Origin: Agapetus fuscipes
Lineage: Eukaryota > Arthropoda > Insecta > Trichoptera > Glossosomatidae
DNA: 64,000 nt
Assembly: GCA_951799405.1 (NCBI GenBank)
Contig: OX637356.1
Coordinates: 15,337,229-15,401,228 of the forward strand
Reading direction: 5' to 3'
This document shows, piece after piece, positions 4,732-38,603 of the stretch. Numbering within the stretch: the stretch's first letter is position 1; each line of letters starts with the position of its first letter. The position numbers were made by a program, and so were the translations under genes. The notes below the pieces were generated by a model. That model searched no databases, was not told the DNA's origin, and saw only the letters and a program-made list of their open reading frames with translations.

Positions 4732-5217
4732 TTAAATTGTTTTAATAGAAAATGTGTTTGTGTGAAAATGACAAGTTTTTTTACAATTTTCTGATATTTG
4801 CTGGTCTCGAAACCATGTTTGGATTACAGCCTCAATCAGTTTTGTTTTTGTTGTGCGATCTGTTTTACGAAGTCTAGCTTTTACAATAGCCCACAGATTT
4901 TCAATGGGATTAAGGTCCGGTGAGTTTCCTGGCCATTCAAGGTATGATATATTTTTGTCCTTGAAATATTTCATCATGATCTTGGACACGTGGCATGGAG
5001 CCGAATCCTGTTGAAAAACTTCTTGACCGTTGGCATCAACTTTTCTTAGTTCAACTTCCAATCTCTGTTCTAGCAAGTCTCTGTATTTTTGCGAGTTCAT
5101 CATCCCTTCGATCGGCACAAGGCATCCGGTACCTTTATAAGAAAAGCAGCCCCAAAACATCTTCTTTAATGGATGTTTAACTGTATGATCAATATGAGCT
5201 GTCGTAATCTTATCCAC
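4732..5217 (-). pseudogene. Tc1 transposase C-terminal half, minus-strand arm
   Basis: This 161-residue reading is the DDE catalytic C-terminal part of a Tc1-family transposase. A WGCFSYKGTG segment leads to FQQDSAPCH (second catalytic aspartate). It is followed by LEWPGNSPDLNPIENLWA, which carries the third acidic residue region. Intact family members are ~340 residues, so the DNA-binding N-terminal half and first aspartate are absent. The part from HVSKIMMKYF onward is repeated in inverted orientation at 5214-5460. Confidence 0.8.
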
Positions 5218-5460
5218 GTGTCCAAGATCATGATGAAATATTTCAAGGATAAAGATATATCATGCCTTGAATGGCCAGGAAACTCACCGGACCTTAATCC
5301 CATTGAAAATCTGTGGGCTATTGTAAAAGCTAGACTTCGTAAAACAGATTGCACAACAAAAACAAAACTGATTGAGGCTGTAATCCATACATGGTTTCGA
5401 GACCAGCAAATATCAGAAAATTGTAAAAAAACTTGTCGATTCAATGCCGAAACGTGTTAA
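5181..5460 (+). pseudogene. Tc1 transposase C-terminal end, plus-strand arm
   Basis: This mirrors the minus-strand arm: VSKIMMKYFKDKDISC, LEWPGNSPDLNPIENLWA, then a KTKLIEAVIHTWF tail to a stop at 5460. A handful of residue changes against the other arm show that the two halves have diverged since the inversion. It has no start region or catalytic core of its own. Confidence 0.75.
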
Positions 5461-6311: not shown

Positions 6312-6575
6312 TGTTGATACGGCTGTCATATTGCACGCGATGTTTTCGAAAACTAAAATCCAAAATATCCATTGATTTACAGTTTTATTTCAAGTGAAAG
6401 AACAACAAGAATACACAAATATCAAATAATCTTTGATACGTGAATGTTTCAAAACCTGTTTCCCAAGATAAAAGTTCAAAACATAACAAAGTTCAAAAAC
6501 ATAACCTCAAATAGTGGCTGTCATTTTACTTTAAAAATTCCAAAAAATATCATTTATTCCATCTAAAACGTGAAA

Positions 6576-7571: not shown

Positions 7572-7998
7572 TACACCATGTTACCCTCAGATACACATTA
7601 GATGAACTCCTGCTGCTGAATCTGGTCTTTGCTCGATTTCTCCCTATTGATCCTACTGCAGTTTTATTTTTCTTTAGTTTTTCCATTTATCTGTTTTTAT
7701 CTTTGTTCTTATTTTTATTTTTTCTTTATCTGTTCTTATTTTTATTTATCAGAGCTTTCCCTTTCCTCTCCTCCTATGGTTATTTCACATTTCCCCCTCT
7801 CCTTATTAATTCCAATGCCATGCATTTCAAGATTATGTTTTTACCTACGTTGGATGTTGCCCCTATCTTTTATTATATTTATTATTTTCTTTGTGCGCCT
7901 CAGTGTCGCAAGGTGAGTTCTCATATAATATTTTATAATTTTATGACATATCATTTCTATTATTTTTACATTTTAATTATGCATAATAGAAACACATC
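7572..7998 (+). other. LINE-A inter-ORF spacer
   Basis: A very T-rich stretch between ORF1 and ORF2. Its long phenylalanine-rich frames are composition artefacts. Confidence 0.6.
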
Positions 7999-10881
7999 AT
8001 GACTTTCAGGTTATATTATCAAAATGTACGTGGGTTACGTACTAAAACAAATATTTTTTCACAGAATGTTTTATTGAACAATTATGACATTTTACTGATT
8101 TCTGAAAGTTGGTTAAATGACGGAATTCTGGATGGTGAGTTGTTTGATGGTCGTTATGACGTCTTCAGAAATGATAGAGACCCTCTTGACACAGGATTGT
8201 CTCGAGGAGGGGGAGTAATGATTGCAACTCGCAGAGTGTTAAATGCTCGCCAGCGACCGGAGTGGCAGTCGGGGCTAGAATGCGTTTGGTTGACCATTCC
8301 TGGAAAATCGTTCAGGAACTCTATTGATTTACATATAGCTTGCATCTATATGATGGGAGGATCTTCTCACCAAGAAATGATGCTCAATTTTGCATCGACA
8401 CTTACAAATTTACTTAATTTTTACCCTAAAGATATTTTTATTGTGGTTGGAGATTTTAATTTGCCCAATATAAAGTGGACTGAGGAAAACAACAATGATC
8501 ACCTCACCCCAATTTTCTTTGAACGCCACACTGCTGAGATTTTCCTTAACTATTCTGCTACTGGTTTGGAACAGTATAATAATATTCTTAATGCTAATGG
8601 GAGAATATTGGATCTTATTCTTTCAAATACTGCTATAAAAACTATACATGCTGCTTTTCCTTTGGTTCCTGAGGACCTCCATCATCCGTCACTTGAACTG
8701 ACTGCCGACCTTGTTCCCAAGAAATACTTGGTTAGTGCCCCACGCTTTACACGTCTTTTTAGGAAGGGTGATTATACTAAACTTAAAAATTTCTTGTCTA
8801 ATATTGATTGGGAGCTGATTCTCAATCAGTGCGATGTGAATGACTGTGTTGATGTATTTTATAGAATAATCAATGAAAGCATTGACTCTTTTATACCCGG
8901 TAAAATGATTAATTGTAATAAGTATCCAACTTGGTTTTCAGCAGCATTGATAAAGATAATTAAAGAAAAACATAAAGCTCACAGACGATGGAGGTTAACA
9001 GGAAATCCAAGGGATTATCAAACATTCTCCCTCTTACGTTCTCGTCAGAAACGCGTACAGGGTGAGTGTCATGCCAGGTTTATCAGATACTCAGAGCTAT
9101 CCATGTCTAAAGAGCCAAAGAGATTTTGGTCATATCTCAAGGGTGTGCGAAATTCCAGTTCACTACCAAGAGAATTATTATTTGAGGGGCAAGTGGCCTC
9201 TGATGCTTGTAGTATGGCAAATCTGTTTTCAAAATATTTTAGATCTGTTTACACTGATTTTTCTGATATCACTGATTCATCTACTGTCGCTTGTCCTCCG
9301 TCCTTTGGTGAATTGTCTACAAATCAAAACATTGCTTGTGGACTGGCGGTTACTCCCATTATGGTTTGCAAATATTTAAACACACTTGATGCTAGCAAAG
9401 GAGCGGGTAGTGATGGCATTCCTTCGTTTTTTGCTATTAGTTGCGCTAATGAACTATCACTCCCTCTGGCAATGATTTTCAATAAGTCCCTTATTACAGG
9501 TATATTTCCTGATGCCTGGAAGAGGGCGCACATAGTTCCAATACACAAATCTGGTCCTAAAACTTCTGCAGAAAACTATCGACCTATATCCATCTTACCC
9601 GTATTTGGTAAATTGTTTGAGAAGTTGATCTATGATCAAATATATCATTTACTCGTTTCTCAGCTACCCAAATCCCAACATGGTTTCCTCAAAAAAAGAT
9701 CAGTCGTCTCCAACTTAGCAGTCTTCACAGATTACGTGTTTGATGAGATGGAAAAGGGTGGCCAAATTGACGTAATCTACACGGACTACTCAAAGGCCTT
9801 TGACAGGGTAAGCCATAGCATATTATTGGATAAACTACAAACACTTGGCGTGCATGGGAATCTGCTGCGGTGGTTTGCATCATACCTGATAAAAAGATCT
9901 CAAGCGGTTGTTCTTGGTGGCTGCAAGTCGGACTTCTTTAGTATTCCGTCTGGTGTCCCCCAGGGCTCTCACCTCGGACCGCTTCTTTACAATGTATATG
10001 TCTATGACATTGAACAGTGTTTTAATTTTACAAAATGTTTATTATATGCTGATGATACTAAAATTTACTTAGGAATTAATAGCATTCAGGACTGCATGAA
10101 GCTGCAGGATAATTTGGACAACCTTACACATTATTGTATTAAAAACAAATTAGATCTTAATGTATCTAAGTGCCATAAGATATCTCTTACCCGCAAGACA
10201 AACCCCTTAAAGTTTAATTATCAACTCAAGGGTGAATACCTTGACACTGTGACTGGGGTGAGGGACCTTGGTGTTTTTATGGATGCTAAATTAATTTTTG
10301 ATGCCCATATTTCCTCTACCACCGTTAAATCTTACAAAATGCTGGGATTTATTTTAAGGACCTGTGAGCCCTTCAGGGGTTCTAATGCCGTTAAGATGGC
10401 CTATTGCGCGTATGTTCGCAGTAGGCTTGAATTCGCTTCACCTATTTGGAATCCACAGTACAGTGTTTATAAGGAACAAATAGAAGCTATACAAAAGAAA
10501 TTTCTAAAGCATCTAAATTACAGGGAACATTTAACTTTTAATAATTATCATGATGCTTGCCGTCATCACGGTTTTATGTCCCTAGAAGCCCGTCGAACGC
10601 TATTAGATATGGCTTTTCTGTACGATATAGTACACGGCCATATTGACTCCACCGTTCTTTGTGAGGGGCTCACTTTGCGTGTACCTACAAGGCGCACTAG
10701 GTTAAATTCACTTTTTTATACGGGAGCGCACACTACAAATTATGCCAGGAACTCGACTTTAACGAGAGCTATGTTTTGTTATAACTCAAATTTTAATCAC
10801 CTGGACATTTTTTGTTTGTCCAAAAACGCATTTCTTCAAGGGGTGCGGATGTACTACTTGAGAAAATGCAAAACTGATTGA
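7999..10881 (+). CDS. LINE-A ORF2: endonuclease and reverse transcriptase
   Basis: A 960-residue ORF2 that nicks target DNA and reverse-transcribes the element RNA by target-primed reverse transcription. Residues 1-~230 form an APE-type endonuclease: YYQNVRGLRTK, the catalytic-type LLISESW, and VVGDFNLPNIKW. The usual SDH-type motif appears as DLHHPS. The RT follows from ~residue 470: YRPISILPVFGKLFEKL, DYSKAFDRVSHS, SGVPQGSHLGPLLYN, and the catalytic LLYADDTKIY near residue 681. The C-terminus has the SRLEFASPIWNP-type thumb region of Jockey/CR1-group elements. No RNase H domain is seen. The frame is uninterrupted, so the copy may be competent or only recently dead. The ATG at 7999 gives the full endonuclease. 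Confidence 0.9.
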   Translation: MTFRLYYQNVRGLRTKTNIFSQNVLLNNYDILLISESWLNDGILDGELFDGRYDVFRNDRDPLDTGLSRGGGVMIATRRVLNARQRPEWQSGLECVWLTIPGKSFRNSIDLHIACIYMMGGSSHQEMMLNFASTLTNLLNFYPKDIFIVVGDFNLPNIKWTEENNNDHLTPIFFERHTAEIFLNYSATGLEQYNNILNANGRILDLILSNTAIKTIHAAFPLVPEDLHHPSLELTADLVPKKYLVSAPRFTRLFRKGDYTKLKNFLSNIDWELILNQCDVNDCVDVFYRIINESIDSFIPGKMINCNKYPTWFSAALIKIIKEKHKAHRRWRLTGNPRDYQTFSLLRSRQKRVQGECHARFIRYSELSMSKEPKRFWSYLKGVRNSSSLPRELLFEGQVASDACSMANLFSKYFRSVYTDFSDITDSSTVACPPSFGELSTNQNIACGLAVTPIMVCKYLNTLDASKGAGSDGIPSFFAISCANELSLPLAMIFNKSLITGIFPDAWKRAHIVPIHKSGPKTSAENYRPISILPVFGKLFEKLIYDQIYHLLVSQLPKSQHGFLKKRSVVSNLAVFTDYVFDEMEKGGQIDVIYTDYSKAFDRVSHSILLDKLQTLGVHGNLLRWFASYLIKRSQAVVLGGCKSDFFSIPSGVPQGSHLGPLLYNVYVYDIEQCFNFTKCLLYADDTKIYLGINSIQDCMKLQDNLDNLTHYCIKNKLDLNVSKCHKISLTRKTNPLKFNYQLKGEYLDTVTGVRDLGVFMDAKLIFDAHISSTTVKSYKMLGFILRTCEPFRGSNAVKMAYCAYVRSRLEFASPIWNPQYSVYKEQIEAIQKKFLKHLNYREHLTFNNYHDACRHHGFMSLEARRTLLDMAFLYDIVHGHIDSTVLCEGLTLRVPTRRTRLNSLFYTGAHTTNYARNSTLTRAMFCYNSNFNHLDIFCLSKNAFLQGVRMYYLRKCKTD

Positions 10882-11149
10882 ATGGCATCCTCTTCCCCTT
10901 CTATTGTCCTTTCTATCCTATTTTCCCAAATCTTCTCTGATAAAAACCTCCGCATTCATATTATTTTTCTTTTGTTCTTTTCGTTTGCTGTTACATTTGC
11001 TGTAGACAAGCTTTTATTGTAATTATTTTTATTTAAGAAAACTATTATTGGCCTTATATGTATTTATTATAAATCTTTACTTGTTTCATGTGTATGTGCT
11101 GTTGTTTTCTGTAATAAATATAAAAAAAAAAAAAAAAAAAAAAAAACAT

Positions 11150-11335
11150 AGGACGCCCGATTCCAGTTTACAGGAAAATTATTACCAGATCCTGGAACGG
11201 TTTTGACATTAAAAAATTTAAATTTGATTTGTCGCTCTCACCAGTTTGTGATCCGGAGACCTTTGTCTCGATGCATCCGGACGGGCTAGTGGATCTGTAC
11301 AACAACACTCTTAAGCGCCTAATTGATCAGCATGC
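11150..11335 (+). pseudogene. LINE-B fragment (piece 2 of copy 1)
   Basis: Continues LINE-B after LINE-A: GRPIPVYRKIITRSWNGFD and LSLSPVCDPETFVSMHPDG match 52959-53144 of copy 2. It ends at CATGC, where LINE-C is inserted, and the LINE-B reading resumes at 14965. Confidence 0.85.
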
Positions 11336-11551
11336 ACATCTGTGTGGATGAAAGACTGAGAGGAGCCGTAAGAGATAGCCGTGTCTACCGCGGGCCTGAA
11401 ATAGGCAGTGATCACTATCTCTTATGTGCTAAAATAATGCTTGGTGAAGTAAGAAAGAAGAAACGCAAGAAGCAAGTAAGAATGACTAGAATAAAAGTAG
11501 AAAGGCTGAATGAAGAAAAAGTGAATGAGAAGTATGTGTCAGAGCTCCACA
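11336..11551 (+). pseudogene. LINE-C endonuclease C-terminal piece
   Basis: Encodes a DERLRGAVRDSRVYRGPEIG segment ending in SDHYLLCAKIML, the last endonuclease motif (SDH), then a lysine-rich linker RMTRIKVERLNEEKVNEKYV. The 5' part of the endonuclease is missing through truncation. The reading is broken at ~11551 by an insertion and resumes near 12505. Confidence 0.65.
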
Positions 11552-11807
11552 ATAGTTATTTATGCCACTGCCTAGTAATGATAGTCTTTGTAACACGAGT
11601 GCTAGTTTGTGCCATGAGGCGCAGCCGAATGGCACAATAGACAGCAAGAGTGTTACAAAGACTAATTACGTGCAGTGGCATACAATACTTTTTCTACGAC
11701 CATTAAATAAATAACAAAATAGTAAATAATAGTCATTATAATGTACTCGTCCATTTTACCTTACCTTTGTCAAAACGTGTGATTTATCATTCCCTTCGAT
11801 TATCTAA

Positions 11808-12030
11808 TCTAACCTAAGTTGCAAAGGTAAATTATATTTAGGATTCATATTGAATTCATGCCCACAAACCGACACATATAAGGTCGCGCTTTTACATCCT
11901 GTATATAAGCTTTTAATCATTCAAACCCAAACTCAAATAAACATATGCCCTGCAGTTGTATTGGCAGGTGAACCAAGTTTTTACAGCATAGGTGATCAAC
12001 CTCATACCCACCTATTAACCAAGTAACTTT
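11808..12030 (-). repeat. R250 copy, divergent
   Basis: TAATCTAACCTAAGTTGCAA tail at left, CCTCATACCCACCTATTAAC head at right. It is noticeably diverged and missing part of the middle. Confidence 0.75.
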
Positions 12031-12412
12031 TTGAGTTTGTTTATTTTTTGCGGTGAAAATTGTTGTATTGTTTTCCTTTCAAGCCTTTTATTTTCCTTTT
12101 AAAAAAGGAAAGCTTTAATTTGGAGCATTCCGATAAATAAATTTGATAAATTTTAGCACTATTAACAATTTTTATTTGACTCTACACATAAAATATATTT
12201 ATTTTCATCTGAACAGGGCTGGAAGTCTCATCACCACGGTAATTCCTACCTACCGAATATCAGTAATATTGTATGAAGCCTAATCAGCTGATCGCTTGCG
12301 GCCATCTTGGATTGAAAGGTCTTCATACCCCCATACAAGGTTGACATTTGAAATTAAAAAATGGTTCCAATTCTGACAATGCGCATGCGCACATTTCCAT
12401 TTCAACACGGTT

Positions 12413-12445
12413 ACCCGTTGCGTAATGTTACATTACGCAACGGGT
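12413..12445. repeat. Perfect 33-nt palindrome
   Basis: ACCCGTTGCGTAATGT and its exact reverse complement are separated by one T (16-bp arms). Confidence 0.85.
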
Positions 12446-12502
12446 GTAGAAATGTATGTCATTGTGATTGCGTTAGCCGTTTTGTAATTAGTAAATTACC
12501 AA

Positions 12503-14602
12503 ATGGGAGTAGAATTTTTTTTAAGTGTGAATGAACTTGAGAAGAATGTGTGTGGAAAAGATATTGAAAGCATGTGGAAAGATTTGAAGGAAGGAATGAT
12601 TGAATGTGCTAAAAAAGTATGTGGGGTAACGAAAGGTGGAAAATTGAAAGGAGATGCCTGGTGGAATGATAGAGTGAAAGAAGCTGTGAAAGTTAAGAAA
12701 AAGTGTTATGAAAATTGGCTGAATGATAGAAATGATAGAAAGCTAGAAGACGAATATAAGATAGCTAAGAGAATGGCAAAGAATATAATTTATGAAAGCA
12801 AGATGAATGAACAAAGAAAGATTGATGAAAGGATTAACAAAAGTTTCACCGACAGTAAGAAGGAATTTTGGAGGTGGATCAATTCGGATAGAAATAAATC
12901 TTCTGCATTGACCACTCCGGGAGTCAAAAGTGCTGCCGGTGAGATGGTATGGGAGAATGAAGAAGTATGTAAGAGATGGAAGAACTATTTTCAAGAAATT
13001 TTTGGCCAGGGTGAAAGAAGAATTTATGAACAGACAGATGAAGAAAATGAATTGAAGATTTTGAAAGAAGAAATGAAAGTGTCTATTTCACGTCTGAAGA
13101 ATGGGAAGTCTGCTGGGTTTGATGGTATAAATGGTGAAATGTTGAAAGCAGGAGGTGAATGTGTGATAGATTGGATGTTTGAATTATGTAAGCTTTGTGT
13201 GAATGCAGTAGTACCGATGGATTGGAGGAAGGCAGTCATTGTTCCCATTTACAAAGGTAAAGGGGACAAAAAAGACTGTCAGAACTTCAGACCAATCAGT
13301 CTACTCAGTATACCAGGAAAAGTCTTCTGTAAGGTGATTATAAAAAATGTGATTCTGACTACTAGCAAAAGAGTTTCCGATATACAGTCCGGCTTTATGG
13401 CCGGTAGAGGCTGTGTTGATCAGATTTTCACTCTACGACAACTTGTTGAAAAACAATTGTCGGTGAGGGGGAAACTATTCACGGCCTTTGTGGATCTGGA
13501 AAAGGCTTTTGACTCAGTGGACAGAGGTATGTTGTGGGATGTTTTGAAAGCATACGGAGTGAATGGAGCTCTCCTCAATGCGGTGCATGCAAACTATGAG
13601 AATAGTATGGCGTGCATTCGTATTGATGGTGAGTATAGTGAATGGTTTGAAGTTTTTAAGGGTGTAAGGCAAGGATGTGTGATGAGCCCATGGCTATTTA
13701 ACATAGTCATGGACAAGTGTGTTCGAGATGCTAGACTTGATGATTGTGGATTAATAATAGGAGAGAGCAAAGTGAGCGTTCTACTGTATGCGGATGATGC
13801 AGTCCTTGTTTCTGATTCAGCAGTGGAATTGCAAATGATGCTCTCTAGATTGAACGAAGCTTTGAAAGGTAATAATTTGAAGTTGAATGCAAGAAAGACG
13901 AAAGTTTTGATTTTTGAAAGAGATGATGAAAATATGAATTATGAATTTAAAATTAATGGAATGAATGTTGATGTTGTAAATGAGTTTGTGTATTTGGGAA
14001 GTAAGTTTGAAAAAGATGGAAGAATGGCCGGTGAATTTGAAAGAAGAATAATGAAAGGCAGGTGTGTACTGGGTGCGACCGCTTGCATCGCCAGGAACCA
14101 AAATCTCTCAAAAAATGTTAGATTGGCGGTGCACGGTGGTATACTAGTGCCAACCTTGATGTATGGAAGTGAAGCCTGGACGGTGAGTGAAAGGGAAATT
14201 AGTAAAGTCCATACAGTAGAAATGGACTATCTAAGAAGTATGATTGGGAAAAAACGAAGTGACAGGGTGAGGAATGATTTTGTAAGAGAAGAATGTGGTG
14301 TAAGGGAAAGTGTGAAAGTGAAGATTAAAAGAAGTATGTTAAGATGGTTCGGGCATATGGAGAGAATGAGTGATGAAAGATTGACGAAGAAAGTATATGT
14401 TGCTAGAATAGATGGATGTCGTGGTAGAGGAAGACCGAGAAAAGTATGGAAGGATCAAATCTCTGAAATAGCGAATGAATGGGATATCCAGAGTCATAAT
14501 AAAAGGAGGACTTGTATGAAAAAGGTTATGACTCTGGATGAAATGAAAGAAGTATGCAAGGACAGGAAGAAGTGGCGGCTAATCTGCAATGTTGATTTTT
14601 AA
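12503..14602 (+). pseudogene. LINE-C reverse transcriptase ORF (5'-disrupted)
   Basis: An open frame of 699 codons encoding the RT and C-terminal region of an RTE-like LINE. Visible motifs: RLKNGKSAGFDGINGEMLKA, FRPISLLSIPGKVFCKVI, VDLEKAFDSVDRGMLWDVLK, KGVRQGCVMSPWLFNIV and the catalytic VLLYADDAVLVSD near residue 428. The C-terminal part has RWFGHMERMSDERLTKKVY followed by GRGRPRKVWKDQI, a tail common to this LINE group. The ATG at 12503 is merely the first in-frame one after an insertion. The genuine protein would include an upstream endonuclease, of which a piece remains at 11336-11551. The RT frame is intact, so decay has been limited. A 5'-truncated sister lies at 46011-47280. Confidence 0.8.
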
Positions 14603-14715
14603 TGTTGGTGTATTAATTTGTTACATTTTTTGCATAGGAAATTTTTGACTTTTTTGTATAGATTTCTTTGTAAGGTTTTGTTCTTTTGTATAGTTAAATG
14701 TAATTTATTATTCGT

Positions 14716-14964
14716 ATTCCTTGACTTATAGGTTGGTATGAGGCTGACCACCCATACTGTAAAAAATGGTTCACTTTGCCAATGTCACCCCTGTTTCAGG
14801 GAAGGTCGGCAAAAGTTGTGGGGCTTATGTTCATTTGAGGTTTGGATTTTATTTGTAAGTACACATTCAGCATTTGTAAGCGCGAACTACATTTGTTGGT
14901 TTGTGGGCATACATCTGAGAGCTTTAAATGAATATATCCTTGCAACTTAGATTATAGATTATAG
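14716..14964 (+). repeat. R250 copy forming the LINE-C 3' end
   Basis: TTCCTTGACTTATAGGTTGG to GCAACTTAGATTATAGATTATAG, directly followed by the target duplication. LINE-C's sister at 46011 has the same module at its 3' end, followed there by poly(A). Confidence 0.85.
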
Positions 14965-16065
14965 ATGCTCCCATAACGGTGAAAATTGTTAAAGATCGCA
15001 GAAGTGCAATCTGGTTTGACAATGAGTGCCGCGTATTGAAGCGCAGTATGCGCAAGCACAAAAAAAATTCAGGAATGGCAAACCAGGTTGCACCAGGGAC
15101 ATGTGGATCAGTGCTTAGAGGGAGTACAGATCTACTTTTCTCCAGAAAAAATCCATCTATTTTCGTAATAAATTTTCTGGGGCTAAAAATCCTCAACAAT
15201 TACTGTGGAAATTTCTGGAGAACCTGTCTGGCGGATCTCAGGTCGGTCCGGTCGTGACTTCGGCTGCCGCTGATTTTGCACAGCACTTTGAGAATAAAAT
15301 TTTCCAATTGCGCTCTACCTTGGGCGTGGGTTCTGCTGGTTTTGTAACTGGTGGCGATTCACGTTTTGGGGTTTTTAATGAAACTTACATTGAGGAGGTC
15401 TCAGGTGTAATAGCGAAGTCACCCAACAAGCAGTGCGATCTTGACCCTGTGCCGACGTGGGTTCTGAAAGAATGCATCTCACAGTTGGCCCCATTTATTG
15501 TAAAGGTTATCAATAGTAGCCTAGTGGAGGCCACTGTCCCTGCGTCTTTGAAGATGGCATTCATAACTCGCATTTTAAAAAAGCCCCAACTTAGTCCTTG
15601 TGATCCCTCTAACTACAGACCGGTGTCGAATTTGCCGTTCTTGTCCAAGGTGTTGGAGCGGATTGTCTCTCTCCGGCTGGTATCGTATCTGGAAACTAAT
15701 AACCTTATGCCGAAATGGCAATCAGGATATCGAAAAGGTCACTCTACAGAAACTGGTATGCTCAAGGTCACGTCTGATATGATATCGGCAATGGAGCAGG
15801 GCAATCTTGCTTTGTTGGCACTTCTGGACATGAGTGCGGCTTTCAACACTGTTAGTCATGAAATACTGATAAATAGATTGGAGGGCTCGTATGGTTTGAG
15901 AAATGGGGCCCTGGAGTGGATGACCTCCTACCTGGTAGGTCGCAAGCAGGCGGTACGTATTTGTGATGATGTCTCACCTGTCTACTCACTCACCTCTGGG
16001 GTTCCGCAGGGGTCCGTGCTGGGTCCAGTCCTTTTTTTACTTTACACAGCCGACATTGAGAGTAT
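14965..16065 (+). pseudogene. LINE-B reverse transcriptase fragment (piece 3 of copy 1)
   Basis: Resumes LINE-B with ITVKIVKDRRSAIWFDNECR. After a frameshift near 15060-15250 it continues as MTSAAADFAQHFENKIF into the RT: YRPVSNLPFLSKVLERIVS, the LLDMSAAFNTVSHEILINRL block (the usual AFDT is AFNT here), and SGVPQGSVLGPVLFLLYTAD. The motif order is CR1/L2-like. It ends abruptly after TADIES, before the catalytic YADD box. Copy 2 (54470-54970) ends at exactly the same residue and junction, so the truncation is older than the duplication. Confidence 0.85.
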
Positions 16066-16154
16066 GACAATTATATTAATATTTAAAACTGAACAAATTT
16101 CAAAACATAATTTAAATTGGATATAAACGAACCGTTTAAAGAGAACTTACATCA

Positions 16155-17193: not shown

Positions 17194-19067
17194 TCAGGAA
17201 TCAGCATCCTCTCCAGTATGTCTCATTTTGTGTCTCTTTAAATGACTGAATCGACATGATTTGTAACTACAGCTATCACAGGAAAATGGCTTCTCACCAG
17301 TGTGTATCATCTTATGATTTTTTAAACTATCTTTTCTATGTGTTTTGTAATTACAACTGTCACAGGAGAATGGCTTCTCACCAGTGTGTGTCATCTTATG
17401 ATTTTTTAATTTGTCTTTTCTATGTGTTTTGTAATTACAACTGTCACAGGAAAATGGCTTCTCCCCAGTGTGTGTCATCATATGATTTTTTAAATTCTCT
17501 TTTACGTGTGTCTTGTAGTTACAACTGTCACAGGATAATGGCTTCTCACCAGTGTGTGTCATCTTATGATTTTTTAATTTGTCTTTTATATGTGTTTTGT
17601 AATTACAACTGTCACAGGAAAATGGCTTCTCACCAGTGTGTGTCATCATATGTTTTTTTAAATTCCTTTTTATATGTGTTTTGTAATTACAATTGTCACA
17701 GGAAAATGGCTTCTCACCTGTGTGTGTCATCTTATGTCTTTTTAAGTCCCCTTTTGTTGTCGTTTTGTAGCTACAACTGACACAGGAAAATGGCTTTTTA
17801 CCAGTGTGTGTCATCTTATGATTTTTTAAACTATCTTTTCTATGTGTTTTGTAGCTACAACTGTCACAGGATAATGGCTTCTCACCAGTGTGTGTCATCT
17901 TATGATTTTTTAATTTGTCTTTTATATGTGTTTTGTAATTACAACTGTCACAGGAAAATGGCTTCTCCCCAGTGTGTGTCATCATATGATTTTTTAAATT
18001 CTCTTTTACGTGTGTCTTGTAGTTACAACTGTCACAGGATAATGGCTTCTCACCAGTGTGTGTCATCTTATGATTTTTTAATTTGTCTTTTATATGTGTT
18101 TTGTAATTACAACTGTCACAGGAAAATGGCTTCTCACCAGTGTGTGTCATCATATGTTTTTTTAAATTCCTTTTTATATGTGTTTTGTAATTACAATTGT
18201 CACAGGAAAATGGCTTCTCACCTGTGTGTGTCATCTTATGTCTTTTTAAGTCCCCTTTTGTTGTCGTTTTGTAGCTACAACTGACACAGGAAAATGGCTT
18301 TTTACCAGTGTGTGTCATCTTATGATTTTTTAAACTATCTTTTCTATGTGTTTTGTAATTACAACTGTCACAGGAGAATGGCTTCTCACCAGTGTGTGTC
18401 ATCTTATGTCTTTTTAAGTCCACTTTTGTTGTCGTTTTGTAGCTACAACTGTCACAGGAAAATGGCTTCTCACCTGTGTGTGTCATCTTATGATTTTTGA
18501 AATTCTCTTTTACGTGTGTCTTGTAGCTACTACTGTCACAGGATAATGGCCTCTCACCAGTATGTGACATATCATGTGTTTTTAAACTCGCTTTACAACG
18601 TGTTTTGAAGTTACAACTCTCACAGGAAAATGGTTTCTCACCAGTGTGTGTCATCATATGTTTTTTTAAATTCCTTTTTATATGTGTTTTGTAATTACAA
18701 TTGTCACAGGAAAATGGCTTCTCACCTGTGTGTGTCATCTTATGTCTTTTTAATTCCCCTTTTGTTTTCGTTTTGTAGCTACAACTCTCACAGGAAAATG
18801 GCTTCTCTCCAGTATGAATCATTTTGTATTTCTTTGAAGCCTTTGTTTTATGTGTTTTTGTTGGTCCCAAGTAATTCACATTGGTCTTGCGCTGGGCAGG
18901 GACTTCAGACTTCTCTCTGAGTTGCACCAAGGCAACCGACGTAGCCTCCAGCTTGTGGCAGGCCAACACTCGATGGAGCCACATATGACTTGTTTGGCTG
19001 CATGTGTAGCTGCAGACAGGGCAGACACGAGGCTGCATAGCAGGAATTCCCACAGGAACTCCAACTC
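17194..19067 (-). CDS. C2H2 zinc-finger protein, large 3' exon (gene 1)
   Basis: The main exon of a poly-zinc-finger protein, presumably a nuclear DNA-binding regulator; target and effect are unknown. It starts at a splice acceptor (CACTTTTCAG on the minus strand); the apparent GTG start at 19053 is internal. An N-terminal finger CPVC...H-x5-H is followed by a ~45-residue linker, then 19 fingers of 28 residues joined by TGEKPFSC linkers, ending in GEDADS. Finger 4 has lost its second cysteine (CDSS). Fingers 6-11 and 12-17 are near-identical six-finger blocks (504 bp each), a recent internal duplication. Base-contact positions vary (helices TTKGDLKR, HIKRNLKK, HRKDSLKN). The exon begins with two bases of a split codon, fitting the exon at 39463-39715. 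With it, the protein is ~708 residues. Confidence 0.8.
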
Positions 19068-19278
19068 CTGAAAAGTGTATTTATTTTGTTGTCACTTTTC
19101 TCAATAAGCAACAAGGATAAGGAACCTCTTTATGCAGTGTGTACTCAACATGTGATGTCTTACATGTAGTATGAGCGGCTCTAACTACAATATGGTAGAG
19201 GGGATAACCTTGAAAGGCTGTTTGATGAGGTACATTTAAGATTCAAAATAAATGCATTCTAACAAGCACACACATATA
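19068..19278 (-). other. Intron start (acceptor side) with R250 remnant
   Basis: Sequence upstream of exon 1's acceptor. It is shared with 49276-49486 and 61678-62131. From ~19215 (TTTAAGATTCAAAATAAATG) it is an R250 copy in minus orientation, cut at 19278 by the mariner element and resuming at 38990. Confidence 0.65.
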
Positions 19279-23630: not shown

Positions 23631-23647
23631 AGAATAATTATTATTAT

Positions 23648-24165
23648 TGTTACGAAATTAGGGTTCAATTGTCTTCAAATTAAAAATACACAGGTCTTCT
23701 TCAATAGTTATTTATTTTACACAGTTACAAAATTTATTTTCACACTACTTTCTCGATTATTCCACTTGGTTTTGGTTCACTGATCAGATGACTTCGATGT
23801 GTTTGTAAGTCTCTATGATACTGGCTCGCTCTGCAGGCCATTCGCACCTTTATACTCTTCAGAGCAGTATGATCCAGAACTAAAGTCGCCAGACGGTTCC
23901 AGAGTAATTATTACTTCTCGACGCTTCACGTACTACCTAGAGATACAACCAAAATCCTACCTACAAATGTAACACAGTATTCCTATAATTATAACAAATA
24001 CCTACTTAGCCTAGAGAATTCTACACTTATACATAATTATCGATCTTACCTACCAATACTTTTGAGGATTCTTATAACTATAACTATCCATACTTATTTC
24101 AATATTTATATTTACATAACACTATAACTACCCATACTTATTTCAATATTTATATTTACATAACA
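23648..24165 (-). repeat. Gypsy 3' LTR
   Basis: 518 bp, TGTTATGT...CGTAACA on the minus strand. It carries a TATAAAG box (23848-23854) and, at the U3 end, a ~46-bp tandem duplication (TATTTATATTTACATAACAC units) that the copy at 62175 lacks. Confidence 0.92.
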
Positions 24166-24180
24166 CTACCCCCCACCTAG
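24166..24180 (-). other. Polypurine tract
   Basis: CTAGGTGGGGGGTAG on the minus strand directly abuts the 3' LTR and also contains the pol stop codon; it would prime plus-strand synthesis. Confidence 0.7.
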
Positions 24181-27100
24181 ACTGTTTCGTCCCGGAACAG
24201 TCTTGACTCTGTGTAGGTAGGGGCATGCTGATCCACGTCGACACCCTGTGGTCAGGAAGAAGTGGCAGTCCACGGATTTCTCCCCACTGGTTCTCGGCTG
24301 CGCTTGCTCGCAGCACACCATGACGCTGATGCCGACTCCCGAGAACACTGCTTCAATCATACTCCGGATTATCCGCCAGTCTCGATTAGCGCGGCCGCCA
24401 CCCATCTTCGGTATTGCCAGACGCGCCTGCTGATCCTCCAACATGTAGTCACGCAGCTCAACAAGGCCGTCCCACAATGCCTTGTAGTCCTCTTCCAGGT
24501 TGCTGGAATCCGGGACAACCAGGCAGTATGCTTGTTGACGCCCCTTCGGTAGTCTCAGAGCTCTTCCTTGCGGGCTGCTCGAGGGTTGCGGTTCTCCGAA
24601 TTTGTATCGGAAGACCCGTGCAATTCCTCTAGACATATCTAGATCTTCCGGTACACTGCATGCCAGTGTGTGGTCCCTAGTGACCTCAAATAAGTCCTTG
24701 TGGACTTCTGTGGTCACTCCATGGCGAAACTTCTGCCCTGCCTTCGCGTTCTCCCAAAACGTCTCAAAGGCTGGTGATCTTTCGGATGCGACGCACTGTC
24801 GTACTTTTTGGGCTGGTTGGTCATCATTATCGCCTAGGTATGGTGAGAGGCGATTGTAGTGCACGACCCTTGGTTTTCCGTTTGGTCTCTTTTTTATGCG
24901 GTAGACCACATCGTTGATGCGCTCCAAGATCTCGTACGGCCCGTCCCAGGAACGCTGAAGTTTCGGACAGTACCCTTGGCGCCTCTTGGGGTCAAAAAGC
25001 CACACCCAGTCACCAGCTTTGTACCCCATGCTGTCAGCTCTGGTGTCATAGCGCTCCTTCATTTGATCGCTGGCTTCCCCGATGTTCATGCGGACCTGAT
25101 CATGGATGTCATCCAGCCTCCTGCGAAGGTCTGTCACATAGTCTTCTCCGGCTAGGTCTTCACCTGGTTTGCAGCCAAATTTGAGATCACAAGGAAGTCG
25201 CATTTCTCGCCCAAACAGTATGCTGCTGGGAGTCTTCTTCGTCGTTTCCTGAACAGCCGACCGGTAAGCCAATAAGAACAAAGGCAGATGTCGGTCCCAG
25301 TCCCGCTGATGGCTGGACACTACTTTGGCTAAGTACCTCCCCACGGTACGGTTCATCCTTTCCACCATTCCATCAGACTGTGGATGTAGCGCAGTGGTCC
25401 TGGTCTTGTAGATCCCTAGCCGCTCACACATTTGCTGGAAGATAGCAGCTTCAAAGTTCCTTCCCTGATCAGAATGTAATTCCAGGGGTACGCCAAACCT
25501 GCTGATAAATTCGGTAACTAGAACTTCAGTCACGGTTACGGCCTCTTGGTTAGGGATTGAGTAAGCTTCCACCCACTTGCTGAAGTAATCCATCACCACC
25601 ATGATGTACTTGTTACCCTTCTCAGTTGTAGGAAATGGGCCAGCTATGTCGATGGCAATTCTTTCAAAGGGGCTGCCAACATTGTACTGACGCATTGGTG
25701 CTCGCCTTTTCCTTTGCGGTCCATTGGCCGTTGCACAGGTTACACATTTTCGACACCAATCTTTGACGTCTTCGCTGCAGTTGATCCAGTAAAATCGCTC
25801 TTTCACTTTCTCCAGCGTCTTCTTAACGCCTAGATGTCCTCCAGAAGTTCCTCCATGCAGCAGTCCAAGGATTTCCGGTACTCGGCTCCTCGGAACGAGG
25901 GTTTGCTTTCTTCTAAGTGTGCCGTCTTCCTTCTCGATCTTTCGTTTCAGGAACCCTCCTTCTATCACTATGGATCCCCATTGAGCCCAATAAGCCTTGA
26001 CAGTTGGTGATAAGGGGGCGAGTTTTTCCCAGGTTGGCCTTTCTCCTTCTCGCGCCCATTCCATCACATACTTCAAGTCCGGATCATTCAGTTGGTCTTG
26101 CGCCAATTTTTCATCTTGCCAGTCCTCATCTTCGGTGGTCGTCCTTTGGACAATTGCTACCTTGTCCTCCATCTTGCTGCAATGTTTGCAGTCACTGGCG
26201 CATGGTCGTCTGGATAATGCATCCGCATTTCGATGAAGCGTGCCAGGTCTATGTTCGGAGTCATAATCATACTCCTGGAGCCTTTCAATCCATCTCGCCA
26301 CTTGCCCTTCTGGGTTTTTGAATTTCAGAAGCCAAACCAGTGCAGCATGATCAGTCCGTAGTGTGAATTTTCTCCCGTACAAGTATTTGCGGAAGTGTTC
26401 CACTGATTTTATCACGGCAAGAAGCTCTCGTCTGGTCACGCAATAATTTCGTTCTGGCTTGGAAAGCACTTTACTGAAGTAACCCAGAACAGTCTCATGC
26501 CCATCCTGTATTTGGGAAAGGACGCCTCCTATCCCCACATTACTAGCGTCGGTATCCAGGATGAACTTTCCATCTTTTCGTGGGTAGCTCAAGATGGGGG
26601 CACTTGTTAATCTTCCCTTAAGCTCTTCAAATGCTTGTGCGCAGGAATCACTCCAATGGAAGCGAGTGTTTTCTTCCGTAAGCTTGGTGAGCGGTTTTGC
26701 AATGTCCGCAAATCTTGGCACAAACCTCCTGTAATAAGTGCACAGCCCCAGGAAACTCCTAGTTTCATGTTTGTCCTTCAGCACGGGCCAGTCTCTTACT
26801 GCCTTGATTTTGGCAGGGTCAACTTCAACTCCACGTTGAGAAACTATGTGTCCCAGGTAATTTACTTGTTTCTTGAACAGGTTACACTTTTTCGGGTTGA
26901 GCTTCAGTCCAGCGTCTTGTAGTCGCCCGAAAACTTGCTCCAGATTTCTCAACTGATGGTTGAAGTCCTTTCCCAGGATGATTATGTCATCCAAGTATAC
27001 CAGGCAGGTTTCCCATGATAGTCCTCGCAGCACATTCTCCATCAGCCTTTCAAACGTGGCGGGGGCATTGCATAAGCCAAATGGCATCACGGTGAACTGC

Positions 27101-28434
27101 CAAAGTCCAGATCCAGTCGAGAATGCAGTTTTCTCCTTATCTTTGGCATCCAATTCAACTTGCCAGTAGCCACTTTTCAGGTCCAATGTGGAAAAAATGG
27201 TGCATCCTGCCAATGTGTCCAAGGTGTCGTCAATCCTTGGCAGAGGGTAACTATCCTTTTTCGTAACATCGTTGAGCAGTCTGTAGTCCACACAAAATCT
27301 CGTGGTGCCATCCTTCTTTTTCACCAGTACCACCGGGGATGTCCAAGGGCTACTTGATGGTTCTATGATGCCATCCTTGCTCATGTCTTTGATGATCTTG
27401 TCAGCTTCTTCCCGCTTTGCAAAGGGTAGTCTTCTTGGAGCCTGTTTTATCGGTCTCGCTTCTCCGGTGTCTATGCTATGTCGCACTACCTTGGTTCTTC
27501 CCAGACGGCCATTAGAGTCCTCGAAAATGTTCTGGTAGCGGCAGATCAAACTCCTCACTCTCCGTTTGTTTTCCTCGGTTAGACCTTGGGAAGCGTCGTG
27601 GACCAGGGCTTCCAATTGTGTTGACAATTTGTTTCCTTCGCATGACATGTTTGTCATCTGTTGCACAATGGAAGTTATCCTCTCACATCTGCCCAAAACA
27701 AAACCTTCATTCATTTTAACTGGGTAGCTGTTCACATTCATGATCTTGACAGGAATGGTCTCCTTTGCGCGAATCACTGTTCTTGCCACCATGACTCCTT
27801 TGTTAACATTGTCCATGTTCTCCGGTTCTATCATACAGATTTGGTCATTTGTACTACTGGAATCCAGGCGGGCACTCACTATCATCTCGGATCGCCCCTT
27901 CACTTCGGTATTCTTGGCTAGGATAACACGTGCAGCCAGTTCTTTCCGTCTTTGCAGGATGACTTCTTCATTTCCAATTTTAATGGACCCTTTCTTTAAA
28001 TTTAAACTGCACCCAAATCTGTCCAGTATGTCCATTCCCAATATAACGTCTTCTTCAATGTTGGCCACCAACGTCCGATGATCAAAAGTGGTGCTGCCAA
28101 TTTGGAAGGTGGCAATCGTCTCCCCATACACCTGTGCTGACTCTCCCGTGGCGGTGTGCAGAGACCACTTTGTTGGTGCAATCTGCTTACCTCGTGCCAC
28201 TATGTCGCGTCTCAGAATTGTCCTGGTTGCTCCCGTGTCCACCAGTAGTTCACGAGTTACTCCATCTATTATGCCATTGATAAAAATGCTGCTGGCTTTT
28301 CCTCTCACGGTTGCGACAGTAGCAGCAGATTTCAGGGCCTCTCCAGCGTGGGTCAACGGTTGCCCCTTCCCATTAACCCTTTCTAGTTTTCCGCAGCCTG
28401 TTTTCTGGGTTTCTGAGGCTTGGGACACTTGGTG
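24166..28434 (-). CDS. pol: Gypsy Pol with C-terminal macrodomain-like region and CCCH finger
   Basis: A polyprotein read by -1 frameshift from gag; the open frame starts after TAG at 28437-28435 and has no ATG start. Positions count from GTG 28428. Protease: DTG at 64-66. RT ~335-515: LVYLDD with YLDD at 478-481. RNase H ~620-745: D625, E668, D693. Integrase: zinc-binding H858, H865, C895, C898; catalytic D927, D987, E1023 (DD35E); GPY/F-type module ~1135-1198. After that Pol usually ends. Here residues ~1243-1372 resemble a TARG1/OARD1-type macrodomain: KDLFEV, DMSRGIARVFRYKFG, YCLVV, IPKMGGGRANRDW and VGISVMVC align in order. The catalytic Lys and Asp of human TARG1 appear replaced (Pro and Ala), so binding rather than hydrolysis is likelier (inference). 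A CCCH finger, C1388-x7-C-x5-C-x3-H1406, closes the protein. Enzyme calls are firm; the macrodomain call is probable. Confidence 0.88.
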   Translation of the reverse strand, partial: HQVSQASETQKTGCGKLERVNGKGQPLTHAGEALKSAATVATVRGKASSIFINGIIDGVTRELLVDTGATRTILRRDIVARGKQIAPTKWSLHTATGESAQVYGETIATFQIGSTTFDHRTLVANIEEDVILGMDILDRFGCSLNLKKGSIKIGNEEVILQRRKELAARVILAKNTEVKGRSEMIVSARLDSSSTNDQICMIEPENMDNVNKGVMVARTVIRAKETIPVKIMNVNSYPVKMNEGFVLGRCERITSIVQQMTNMSCEGNKLSTQLEALVHDASQGLTEENKRRVRSLICRYQNIFEDSNGRLGRTKVVRHSIDTGEARPIKQAPRRLPFAKREEADKIIKDMSKDGIIEPSSSPWTSPVVLVKKKDGTTRFCVDYRLLNDVTKKDSYPLPRIDDTLDTLAGCTIFSTLDLKSGYWQVELDAKDKEKTAFSTGSGLWQFTVMPFGLCNAPATFERLMENVLRGLSWETCLVYLDDIIILGKDFNHQLRNLEQVFGRLQDAGLKLNPKKCNLFKKQVNYLGHIVSQRGVEVDPAKIKAVRDWPVLKDKHETRSFLGLCTYYRRFVPRFADIAKPLTKLTEENTRFHWSDSCAQAFEELKGRLTSAPILSYPRKDGKFILDTDASNVGIGGVLSQIQDGHETVLGYFSKVLSKPERNYCVTRRELLAVIKSVEHFRKYLYGRKFTLRTDHAALVWLLKFKNPEGQVARWIERLQEYDYDSEHRPGTLHRNADALSRRPCASDCKHCSKMEDKVAIVQRTTTEDEDWQDEKLAQDQLNDPDLKYVMEWAREGERPTWEKLAPLSPTVKAYWAQWGSIVIEGGFLKRKIEKEDGTLRRKQTLVPRSRVPEILGLLHGGTSGGHLGVKKTLEKVKERFYWINCSEDVKDWCRKCVTCATANGPQRKRRAPMRQYNVGSPFERIAIDIAGPFPTTEKGNKYIMVVMDYFSKWVEAYSIPNQEAVTVTEVLVTEFISRFGVPLELHSDQGRNFEAAIFQQMCERLGIYKTRTTALHPQSDGMVERMNRTVGRYLAKVVSSHQRDWDRHLPLFLLAYRSAVQETTKKTPSSILFGREMRLPCDLKFGCKPGEDLAGEDYVTDLRRRLDDIHDQVRMNIGEASDQMKERYDTRADSMGYKAGDWVWLFDPKRRQGYCPKLQRSWDGPYEILERINDVVYRIKKRPNGKPRVVHYNRLSPYLGDNDDQPAQKVRQCVASERSPAFETFWENAKAGQKFRHGVTTEVHKDLFEVTRDHTLACSVPEDLDMSRGIARVFRYKFGEPQPSSSPQGRALRLPKGRQQAYCLVVPDSSNLEEDYKALWDGLVELRDYMLEDQQARLAIPKMGGGRANRDWRIIRSMIEAVFSGVGISVMVCCEQAQPRTSGEKSVDCHFFLTTGCRRGSACPYLHRVKTVPGRNSLGGG

Positions 28435-29768
28435 CTAAGGTGGCCCAGCTGTCCGCAGTTCCAGCAGCGTGGGTCTCGTCTTCGAGGTCTCAGACGTTCC
28501 AGCACTTTTTCAATTAGCTCCTCGGTTGTAGGTAGCTTGACCTCCTCTGCCTCGACTGCACGAACCCTGGCGTGGCCCCTGATGGACTGTTTGACAGCCT
28601 CAAACTCGAGAGCTTGGCTGAGCGCCTCGTTCAAAGCCTTGGGATGGGCCAGTTTTACGGCTTGTTGCGTCTCCCATTCCCGCAATCCATTTAGGAACTT
28701 GTCCACTGCCAAGCTCTCACAGATGTCGTCGGAGGCTGTCGGGTAAGCGTCTCGTACCAGGCGGGCGATGTCCATTTCAAACTCCTGGAGGCTCTCGTTG
28801 GGCTTCTGCACCCTTGTGTTCAGCTGCGACTTGTACAGCTGCTCCAGGCACTTGTGGCCATAGCGCATATCCAAGCGCTGCTTCAGCTGCCCAAAGTTAC
28901 CACGGTTGTCCAGGGGTATGGCCTGCAGAACCCTGAGAGCGTCTCCTCGGAGCGACAGGCTGAGAACCGAAGCCTTCTTCTGCTGGCTCCAGGCTCCCAT
29001 CATGGCAGCCGTCTCAAAGAGGGTCAAGTATTCCTCCCACGACGTCTTCCCGTCGAAGGTTGGGAGGTTGTGCTTGGCTAGGGAAGGGTCATCATCCCCT
29101 CTTGTGATCCTGGTTGGAGTTGAGCATCCCTGGTCGGTCTCGTCGTGAAGGCCGCCTTTGGGGGAGATTCTGGTGGACTCCATCTGGCACTTGTCAGCCA
29201 GCTCGGCACGCAGACGGTCTTCCAGGTTTGACATCCGAGTCTCCATTTCCCCCTTCAGGGCCGAGAGGTTGGTTGTCATCTTCTCCTCTATTTCTCCTTT
29301 CAGGGTTGTGAGACTATCCGCTATCTCCGCCTTCAGGGTCCTGGCGTTGTCAGCCATCTCCGCCTTCAGGTCTTCCCTCAGGGTCTTGGAATTGTCAGCC
29401 ATTTTCTCCTCCAGGGTCCTGGCGTTGTCAGCCATCTTCTCCTCCAGCCCGGTCAGGTCCTCCTTCAGGGTCTTGGCGTTGTCAGCCATCTCCACTTTCA
29501 GGGTCTTGGCGTTGTCAGCCATCTCCCCTTTCAGCTTTTCCTCCATGGAAGTGAAGTTTCCGGTGATGCTGAGGTTTAGCTCGTCCAAGGCGCGGTCCCC
29601 TCCAGACGCCATGACAAAATATGCCGGGTCTTCGCCTGACTGTTCTAAGGCCTCCATGAGGCGTGCCTGTAAGGCCGCCTTCCCTCCTGAGGTCTCCAGG
29701 TCCCTCTCCAGAAGCTCATTTTTAAGCTCAGTGACTTTGAGGTCCTTGATGTTCACTTTGGTTGCCAT
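28383..29768 (-). CDS. gag: Gypsy Gag with SAP-like N-terminus and CCHC knuckle
   Basis: Capsid/nucleocapsid precursor forming the element's particles. The start is ATG at 29768 (MATKVN); the frame opens slightly earlier with TTG. Residues ~8-42 (DLKVTELKNELLERDLETSG...ALQARLMEAL) match the two-helix SAP motif, a DNA-binding fold. Residues ~65-195 are a coiled coil built of 11-residue repeats around MADNAKTLK. The capsid-like core follows (LPTFDGKTSWEEYLTLFE, then LRDG-type helices, QFEMDIARLVRDAYP), typical of Retrotrans_gag. CWNCGQLGHLSTKC near residue 440 is the RNA-binding CCHC knuckle. It overlaps pol by ~50 nt. Confidence 0.88.
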   Translation of the reverse strand: MATKVNIKDLKVTELKNELLERDLETSGGKAALQARLMEALEQSGEDPAYFVMASGGDRALDELNLSITGNFTSMEEKLKGEMADNAKTLKVEMADNAKTLKEDLTGLEEKMADNARTLEEKMADNSKTLREDLKAEMADNARTLKAEIADSLTTLKGEIEEKMTTNLSALKGEMETRMSNLEDRLRAELADKCQMESTRISPKGGLHDETDQGCSTPTRITRGDDDPSLAKHNLPTFDGKTSWEEYLTLFETAAMMGAWSQQKKASVLSLSLRGDALRVLQAIPLDNRGNFGQLKQRLDMRYGHKCLEQLYKSQLNTRVQKPNESLQEFEMDIARLVRDAYPTASDDICESLAVDKFLNGLREWETQQAVKLAHPKALNEALSQALEFEAVKQSIRGHARVRAVEAEEVKLPTTEELIEKVLERLRPRRRDPRCWNCGQLGHLSTKCPKPQKPRKQAAEN

Positions 29769-30432
29769 TTTTTTCAAAATTTACTTCAAAACAAAAATAT
29801 TTTTAAATTTATTTAATACAAGTTTTGAGTTTTATATATATAGCTGTTTTGAATACGTACTTTAGCAAAATAATAATTTATCTGATTACACTGATTGGTA
29901 GGTACTGTCTTTTAATATTTATTTTTAAATCACCAATATTTTTAACATAATAATGTCTGATAGTACATAATTATTTATTTCGTCTCAAGTCTTTCAAACA
30001 CACAGGTAGGTACTTAATGTACATTCACACACTTGTAAACAAAGGATAGTTATTCAAAAACTTTTTCTCGATGAATCTGGAACGTTCTTTTGTAATATTT
30101 TTCAAGATTTTTTTTATTTATTTATTTTATTTTTTTAATCACACACAATAATAAAAAAACTATGGTCCAATTTGATGACTTTCTCAATGCGGTAAAATAG
30201 TCATTATATTATGTCCAGAATTATGTTCCATATGATGTTCCAGAATTTATAAGCAACTTGCTTTTGCGTCTTTTCTTTTAACAAAAATTTATTTAAACAC
30301 TTGTTTTCACAAAAGTCAGTTCACACAAAGTTCAATTTGAATAAAGTTCATTTTAACACTATTTAATTTATTTTATTTATTTTTAGACAGAAGATCTTAA
30401 TTTTTCTTGACAATTCCGCACCTGACGCCAAT
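29769..30432 (-). other. Gypsy leader and primer-binding region
   Basis: AT-rich untranslated leader. TTGGCGTCAGGTGCGG lies immediately inside the 5' LTR (30416-30431 on plus), in the position of the tRNA primer-binding site; the tRNA was not identified. Confidence 0.6.
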
Positions 30433-30950
30433 TGTTACGAAATTAGGGTTCAATTGTCTTCAAATTAAAAATACACAGGTCTTCTTCAATAGTTATTTAT
30501 TTTACACAGTTACAAAATTTATTTTCACACTACTTTCTCGATTATTCCACTTGGTTTTGGTTCACTGATCAGATGACTTCGATGTGTTTGTAAGTCTCTA
30601 TGATACTGGCTCGCTCTGCAGGCCATTCGCACCTTTATACTCTTCAGAGCAGTATGATCCAGAACTAAAGTCGCCAGACGGTTCCAGAGTAATTATTACT
30701 TCTCGACGCTTCACGTACTACCTAGAGATACAACCAAAATCCTACCTACAAATGTAACACAGTATTCCTATAATTATAACAAATACCTACTTAGCCTAGA
30801 GAATTCTACACTTATACATAATTATCGATCTTACCTACCAATACTTTTGAGGATTCTTATAACTATAACTATCCATACTTATTTCAATATTTATATTTAC
30901 ATAACACTATAACTACCCATACTTATTTCAATATTTATATTTACATAACA
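30433..30950 (-). repeat. Gypsy 5' LTR
   Basis: 518 bp, the same sequence as 23648-24165 by eye, including the U3 tandem duplication. Confidence 0.92.
30633..30639 (-). promoter_or_regulatory. LTR TATA box
   Basis: TATAAAG on the minus strand, ~200 bp before the LTR end, in U3; conserved in the 62175 copy (62440-62446). Confidence 0.6.
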
Positions 30951-31136
30951 TTATTAAGATTATGAAAAAAAAAATTGTTTTGCAAAATATTTTACTATTG
31001 TAATATTATGTCTTTCAAAGGAAATAGGATAATATGTTAAACAATGGTTCTTTGTTCAAATTTTACCTACCAGGATAAAAAGGATTCTCGATTTTTGAAT
31101 GACATTTTTCTATGACTTATGCCTACCAAGTGACTT

Positions 31137-37479: not shown

Positions 37480-37851
37480 AAAAATATCGTCAATAATGGG
37501 TATAAGTATGAAGAACTGAGTTTTTTATTTATATTTTGTGGTTTTTTACTGTATTCTTTTGTTTGTAATAATTCGTCACGCACTTATCATGAGTTTTATT
37601 TCATTAAATTAACATACGAGTATATATCTTTTATATGGGGAAATTTGAAAATTTGATGGAACTGTCAGGCTATCTTCGCATGATATTCGTCTTCAATTTA
37701 CATGTAGGTACCTCGATGTTTCCTTGCCGACGCTTGGTAAACAACTGATTGCAAATGGGGCATACACTATCATTTAGGGCATACATGATGTGGGTCGGAT
37801 ATATACGCTAATGCTCCATCTATATATTTTATTTAGATCAATGGATAAAAT

Positions 37852-38354
37852 AGACGCTATTTTTGAAAAGGTGGAGAAAGATCGGCATATCCGCAGTTAC
37901 GACATAGCTGAAGAACTGGGAATTGACAAAAAAACAGTTTTTACCCTTTTGAAAAAAGCTGGGTACACAAAAAAGCTCGATATTTGGGTGCCACACGAGC
38001 TCACTGAAAGAAACCTAATGTACTGTGTACTCATTTGCAATTCTTTATTGAAACGTAATGAAACCGCACCGTTTTTGAAGAGATTGATAACTGGTGATGA
38101 AAAGTGGATCATGTATGACAAGAACGTGCGAAAAAGGTCGAGGTCAAAGGTCGGTCAGGCTTCACAGACTGTGGCAAAACCTGGGTTAACTCGCAATAAG
38201 GAGATGCAGTGTCTATGGTGGGATTGGAAGGGCATTTTGTATAATGAGCTTTTACCGCCGGGCAAAACCATCAATTTGGATCTCTACTGCCAACAACTGG
38301 TGAGATTAAAGCAAGAAATTGAGAGAAAGCGGCCGAAATTGATTAAAAGAAAGG
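37852..38354 (+). pseudogene. mariner transposase, piece 3
   Basis: Largest remaining piece: the second helix-turn-helix (RSYDIAEELGIDKKTVF), the YTKKLDIWVPHELTERN motif (WVPHEL, conserved in mariners), then the catalytic domain start with TGDEKWIMYDKN, where D is the first catalytic aspartate. The LPPGKTINLDLYCQQL block follows, and it runs up to RPKLIKRK. It is cut at AAGG by an R250 insertion. Confidence 0.85.
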
Positions 38355-38603
38355 TTGACTGATAGGTTGGTATGAGGTTGACCACCCATACTGTAAAAAA
38401 TGGTTCACTTTGCCAATGTCACCCCTGTTTTAGGGAAGGTCGGCAAGAGTTGCAGGGCTTATGTTCATTTAAGATTGGGTTTTTATATTGTAGGTCCACA
38501 TGCGGCATGTGAGCGCGAAATTATGCTTGTCTGTTTGTGGGAATGCATTTAATATGAATCTCAAATGATACATATCTTTGCAGCTTAGATTTAGATTAGA
38601 TTT
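38355..38603 (+). repeat. R250 copy inserted in mariner (clean boundaries)
   Basis: 249 bp, TTGACTGATAGGTTGGTATG to GCAGCTTAGATTTAGATTAG. The 4-bp duplication AAGG (38351-38354, 38604-38607) and the rejoining mariner frame define both ends exactly, making this the reference copy. Confidence 0.9.

Follow-up and report, generated by a model that had tools for sequence, protein, structure and literature searches.

A TARG1-type macrodomain and a CCCH zinc finger at the C-terminal end of a Ty3/Gypsy Pol protein in Agapetus fuscipes

Macrodomains are a viral answer to host ADP-ribosylation, and in proteins such as alphavirus nsP3, rubella p150 and Banna virus VP5 the fold is embedded within a viral protein. 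The antitoxin DarG uses a macrodomain to take ADP-ribose off DNA. The cellular protein TARG1/OARD1 (C6orf130) belongs to the ALC1-like class of macrodomains, and its catalytic residues are Lys84 and Asp125. Here we describe a Ty3/Gypsy-type long terminal repeat (LTR) retrotransposon, contained in a 64,000-nucleotide stretch of the Agapetus fuscipes genome (hereafter the window, at its full length), that carries a TARG1-type macrodomain and a CCCH zinc finger at the C-terminus of its Pol protein. It shares with other Ty3/Gypsy elements the LTRs, a Gag with a CCHC knuckle, a Pol with the order protease, reverse transcriptase (RT), RNase H, integrase, and the p58_C/SH3 end; it differs from them in the macrodomain and CCCH finger added in frame after the integrase and in a SAP domain within Gag.

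The element is delimited by two LTRs with TG..CA ends that are identical at 518/518 positions and are flanked by a target site duplication. Between them the Gag and Pol frames, both on the minus strand, are open; this and the identity of the LTRs indicate recent activity, and the insertion is apparently very recent. The Pol domains have their usual catalytic motifs. The Pol stop codon (TAG) immediately adjoins the 3' LTR, so that the tail occupies the space from the integrase to the polypurine tract. An earlier note, made from the letters of this DNA alone, had reported some 220 extra residues after the integrase, and indeed the p58/SH3 domain ends at residue 1197 of a 1420-residue protein.

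Over the whole length of the domain, TARG1 ranks above the other macrodomains as the closest match of this tail, both in sequence (a macrodomain match at E about 1e-10) and in fold, the predicted structure being that of a macrodomain. When a profile built from 12 of these macrodomains was compared with the PDB, TARG1 was recovered at 7e-56, and DarG was the second-best class at 3e-11. The NCBIfam DarG model matches 12/12 of the macrodomains at E up to 1; the window reaches 24.2 bits, far under the family cut-off of 250, and, unlike DarG, lies outside any prokaryotic toxin-antitoxin setting. Used as a protein query, the window tail had a single match among 292 candidates, the protein P0001, at 38-39% identity over nearly the full tail, and the P0001 tail in turn retrieved 51 proteins among 440 candidates. 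According to precomputed Pfam annotation, 23 of these have Pol domains, 27 have none listed and the remaining one belongs to Banna virus; a Pfam scan of 8 of the 27 saw no Pol domains in those 8. The macrodomain follows the integrase, as it does in the window, in 17 of the 23 Pol proteins or fragments (an order established by our own Pfam run for 10, by a local integrase search for 6, and for P0010 taken from the precomputed annotation together with its resemblance to P0009). In the other six it is located elsewhere in Pol or behind a different integrase end: before the protease in P0038 (which represents 55 contigs), before the RT in P0051, between RNase H and integrase in P0043 and P0044, before the integrase in P0041 (a partial protein from Athalia rosae), and behind an integrase without a p58_C match in P0036. 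The assignment to the TARG1 class and the macro fold proposed in the earlier note have thus stood, and neither of the two outcomes it had set against its own proposal, a prediction lacking the fold or a tail unconserved in relatives, was seen.

The CCCH finger that the same note had placed behind the macrodomain is likewise there, with the pattern C-x7-9-C-x5-C-x3-H and a PF00642 match of 21.5 bits for the isolated tail (cut-off 20.5), falling to 17.5 bits, below the cut-off, for the whole of Pol. The pattern recurs in 11 of the 17 relatives with the macrodomain after the integrase; P0011 terminates where it would start, and P0014-P0017 and P0020 are without it.

Lys84 and Asp125 (human TARG1 numbering) are present in the best-scoring macrodomain of 51/51 relatives. 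The window has Pro and Ala at these positions, a substitution already noticed earlier, and its domain, which in contrast to TARG1 belongs to a retrotransposon Pol, is of TARG1 type by likeness and fold and is not a predicted hydrolase. The attendant suggestion that it serves for binding only could apply at most to the window copy; the relatives found all retain both residues, so that the family is rather to be read as carrying a captured eraser. Replacing Lys by Pro takes a minimum of two nucleotide substitutions, and the LTRs differ nowhere; hence the catalytic loss predates the present insertion. If conserved sites are defined as the 37 columns in which at least 90% of 52 other rows (the 51 proteins and human TARG1) have a single residue, the window retains 21/37; when 23 elements and the Banna virus protein, 24 rows in all, are each scored against the rest, retention runs from 30/35 to complete (86-100%). 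Among the residues kept are D20-L21-F22 on the adenine side, G43-I44-A45, P118 and G123. Those gone are H32, T83, K84, C122, L124, D125 and ten more, the altered sites falling mainly at 32-35, 58-61, 80-92 and 122-127, plus 147.

The RT of the window is 76-85% identical to that of ten relatives, and its integrase is likewise ordinary; the identity of its macrodomain is 37-46%. For comparison, three yardstick pairs of relatives have values of 81-88% for RT and 55-57% for the macrodomain. The ratio of macrodomain to RT distance has a median of 4.30 (range 3.20-5.06) in the 10 pairs that involve the window and of 2.69 (range 1.84-5.11) in the 45 others, and the corresponding ratios to integrase distance are 3.92 and 2.78. 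An apparent tenfold acceleration of the window macrodomain (a branch of 2.11 against a median of 0.24) shrank under the simpler LG+G4 model to about 1.6-fold with overlapping ranges and was set aside.

Phylogenies of RT and integrase were built solely from the relatives found plus the window. In the RT tree (16 rows) the window falls within a group of 12 (support 100/99) that has the C-terminal macrodomain; P0043, whose branch is long (1.11), is also a member, and P0044, P0051 and the pair P0036/P0038 are outside. Of the integrase sequences (21 rows), those of P0041, P0044, P0051 and P0036/P0038 fall outside, and that of P0043, once more long-branched, falls inside (85/94). The macrodomain tree, itself affected by long branches, unites the 18 C-terminal macrodomains (the window and 17 others) in a single clade (100/95). 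These cluster weakly with P0038, P0043 and P0044 (81/73), and all of them have the motif M-S-R/K-G-I-A or a close variant of it at the site that reads M-G-S/A-G-I-A in the cellular proteins. In a tree without the window and with nine prokaryote or phage loci added, P0043 and P0044 still join (91/92), P0038 does not, and P0041 and P0051 group with aphid proteins (80/71 and 87/80, unstarred). A single clade of all 24 element macrodomains, window included, is not rejected by the approximately unbiased (AU) test (p-AU 0.163); further topologies gave 0.07 for P0041 joined to the main group of 21, 0.37 for P0051 and 0.18 for the pair P0036+P0038, and the best tree already unites the main group with P0036 at 78/35. 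The trees thus do not show independent captures, and because a single origin is not rejected, the different places that the macrodomain takes in Pol may stem either from multiple captures or from a single one and later exchange between elements.

The donor of the macrodomain was likely an insect, since 25 of the 27 proteins without Pol domains carry insect labels (beetles, aphids and their kin, leafhopper, termite, locust; two are unnamed). A beetle donor, hinted at by a 97/93 branch of 38 rows in one tree, was not retained: in another tree 16 beetle-side cellular rows separate from the elements at 68/74, and the 38-row join is unsupported when the nine prokaryote or phage loci are added and the window is left out. 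Scans of viral and prokaryote contigs yielded distant macrodomains only, at 23-30% identity (5 and 4 loci), and the phage records yielded 4 Lactobacillus phage records. The Banna virus VP5 record, P0050, has a macrodomain that belongs to this class, retains the two catalytic residues and is 44% identical to that of P0001; among viral proteins, the best fold match to the window tail comes from Kadipiro virus. The beetle cellular proteins P0012, P0018, P0019 and P0021 each contain one good TARG1-type macrodomain and up to three extra matches, mostly weak and partly insignificant. P0001 comes from an assembly labelled Erysiphe pulchra, and both it and P0014 are from a powdery mildew-labelled assembly, for which arthropod contamination is the likely explanation.

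We give roughly even odds (about 0.5) to the following interpretation: Gypsy elements acquired a TARG1-type gene from an animal, probably an insect, as an ADP-ribosyl hydrolase, and in the lineage of the window this has become a domain that is predicted to lack catalysis and that perhaps serves to read ADP-ribose. The captured hydrolase would travel with the integrase and would clear the ADP-ribose placed by host transferases on element proteins or on DNA or RNA ends. Such a role across the family is suggested by the catalytic residues that the relatives keep, and their replacement in the window points to a loss of hydrolysis there; its domain would most likely persist as a non-catalytic reader or tether beside the integrase, and the CCCH finger perhaps binds RNA. 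The sequences suggest that such elements interact with host ADP-ribose marks; the proposal of the earlier note that the element may counter or exploit ADP-ribosylation, or target RNA, is an inference. Several observations weigh against this interpretation. The Pfam Macro profile (PF01661), a check that the earlier note had proposed, does not list the window at E up to 1 and lists the other 11 of the 12 macrodomains in the comparison set. In the predicted fold, 5 of the 14 blocks of the macrodomain part have low confidence (pLDDT 58-76). The open frame is weak evidence of constraint, since neutral simulation left 122, 64 and 14 runs per 1000 free of stops at 75, 65 and 55% identity, and openness is by itself no proof; the predicted fold and the structural sites retained appear to be the better argument. 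The window macrodomain evolves faster than those of its relatives, modestly and with overlapping ranges, which also fits decay. As for the donor, the branch that separates animal and element macrodomains from the nine prokaryote or phage loci has a support of only 77/84.

Much of this, together with the 16 of 37 conserved sites lost in a cluster at the active site, is what would be expected if the window macrodomain were a decaying passenger devoid of function, its frame kept open merely by the CCCH finger and polypurine tract downstream, an explanation that we consider rather unlikely. It is unlikely, too, that the domain has become a simple add-on to the integrase that binds proteins or RNA and has no link to ADP-ribose; the loss of the catalytic and distal-ribose-side positions and the CCCH finger that comes next would agree with this, but D20-L21-F22 on the adenine side is retained, as are parts of the glycine loops. 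The silence of Pfam Macro would also be expected of an artefact, be it a fortuitous match, a chimeric assembly or an adjacent host gene read through. Nonetheless, this is extremely improbable: the tail sits between identical LTRs with its stop touching one of them, the macrodomain match is significant, and the same order occurs in relatives from other assemblies. With tblastn the tails of three relatives are significant solely in the annotated frame, which disposes of a chance match or wrong frame, and the relatives and LTR boundaries dispose of a chimera. Returning to the captured hydrolase, we advance only tentatively its wider form, in which insect Gypsy elements would have repeatedly gained or exchanged TARG1-type macrodomains at several points of Pol because retrotransposons are held in check by host ADP-ribosylation; in the lineage of the window the eraser would then have turned into a non-catalytic ADP-ribose reader with a guiding or protective role for the integration complex.

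Table 1. Coordinates in the window of the element and its parts
Feature	Position	Strand	Remarks
Target site duplication, one side	30951..30954		TTAT
5' LTR	30433..30950	-	518 bp
Gag ORF (open reading frame)	28383..29777	-	464 aa; SAP domain, coiled repeats, Retrotrans_gag, CCHC knuckle
Gag SAP domain	29643-29750	-	E 2.9e-08
Gag Retrotrans_gag match	28677-28964	-	
Gag CCHC knuckle	28419-28469	-	
Pol ORF	24166..28428	-	1420 aa; frame differs from Gag (-1 by coordinates)
Aspartic protease	28018..28281	-	Pol 50-137; DTG present
Reverse transcriptase	26842..27324	-	Pol 369-529; YLDD present
RNase H	26269..26655	-	Pol 592-720
Integrase H2C2 and core	25396..25896	-	Pol 845-1011
Integrase third acidic motif	25351-25377	-	just past listed core
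Integrase p58_C/SH3 domain	24838..25014	-	Pol 1139-1197
TARG1-type macrodomain	24316..24711	-	Pol 1240-1371; Lys84 to Pro, Asp125 to Ala
CCCH zinc finger	24211..24267	-	Pol 1388-1406
3' LTR	23648..24165	-	518 bp
Target site duplication, other side	23644..23647		TTAT

The SAP domain, to our knowledge unusual in Gag, stands at the start of this Gag and also occurs in the relatives P0009 and P0010 (the latter by precomputed domains). The coiled repeats of the window Gag, at 29199-29540 (-), consist of MADNAKTLK-like units, with DNA repeat spacings of 33-78 bases. A simple pattern search of the Gag/Pol overlap found no slippery heptamer of the X-XXA-AAN or X-XXT-TTN type. The macrodomain tail has no second copy elsewhere in the window at E below 6. 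The remainder of the window contains LINE-like (long interspersed nuclear element) endonuclease and reverse transcriptase ORFs at 6567-16126 (+) and 51907-55085 (+), transposase pieces at 4732-5259 (-) and 37778-38362 (+), and three long C2H2 zinc-finger arrays in one orientation, at 17194-19080 (-), 48158-49288 (-) and 60563-61690 (-). A 5S rRNA match of 74.6 bits at 58883-59001 (-) may represent either a gene or a short interspersed nuclear element (SINE) derived from 5S.

A TARG1-type macrodomain is thus found in the Pol of LTR retrotransposons, at varied positions and with the catalytic pair present in all the relatives found. This makes it testable whether ADP-ribosylation opposes insect retrotransposons or serves their integration, and the lineage of the window, a recent insertion without the catalytic pair, offers the natural comparison.
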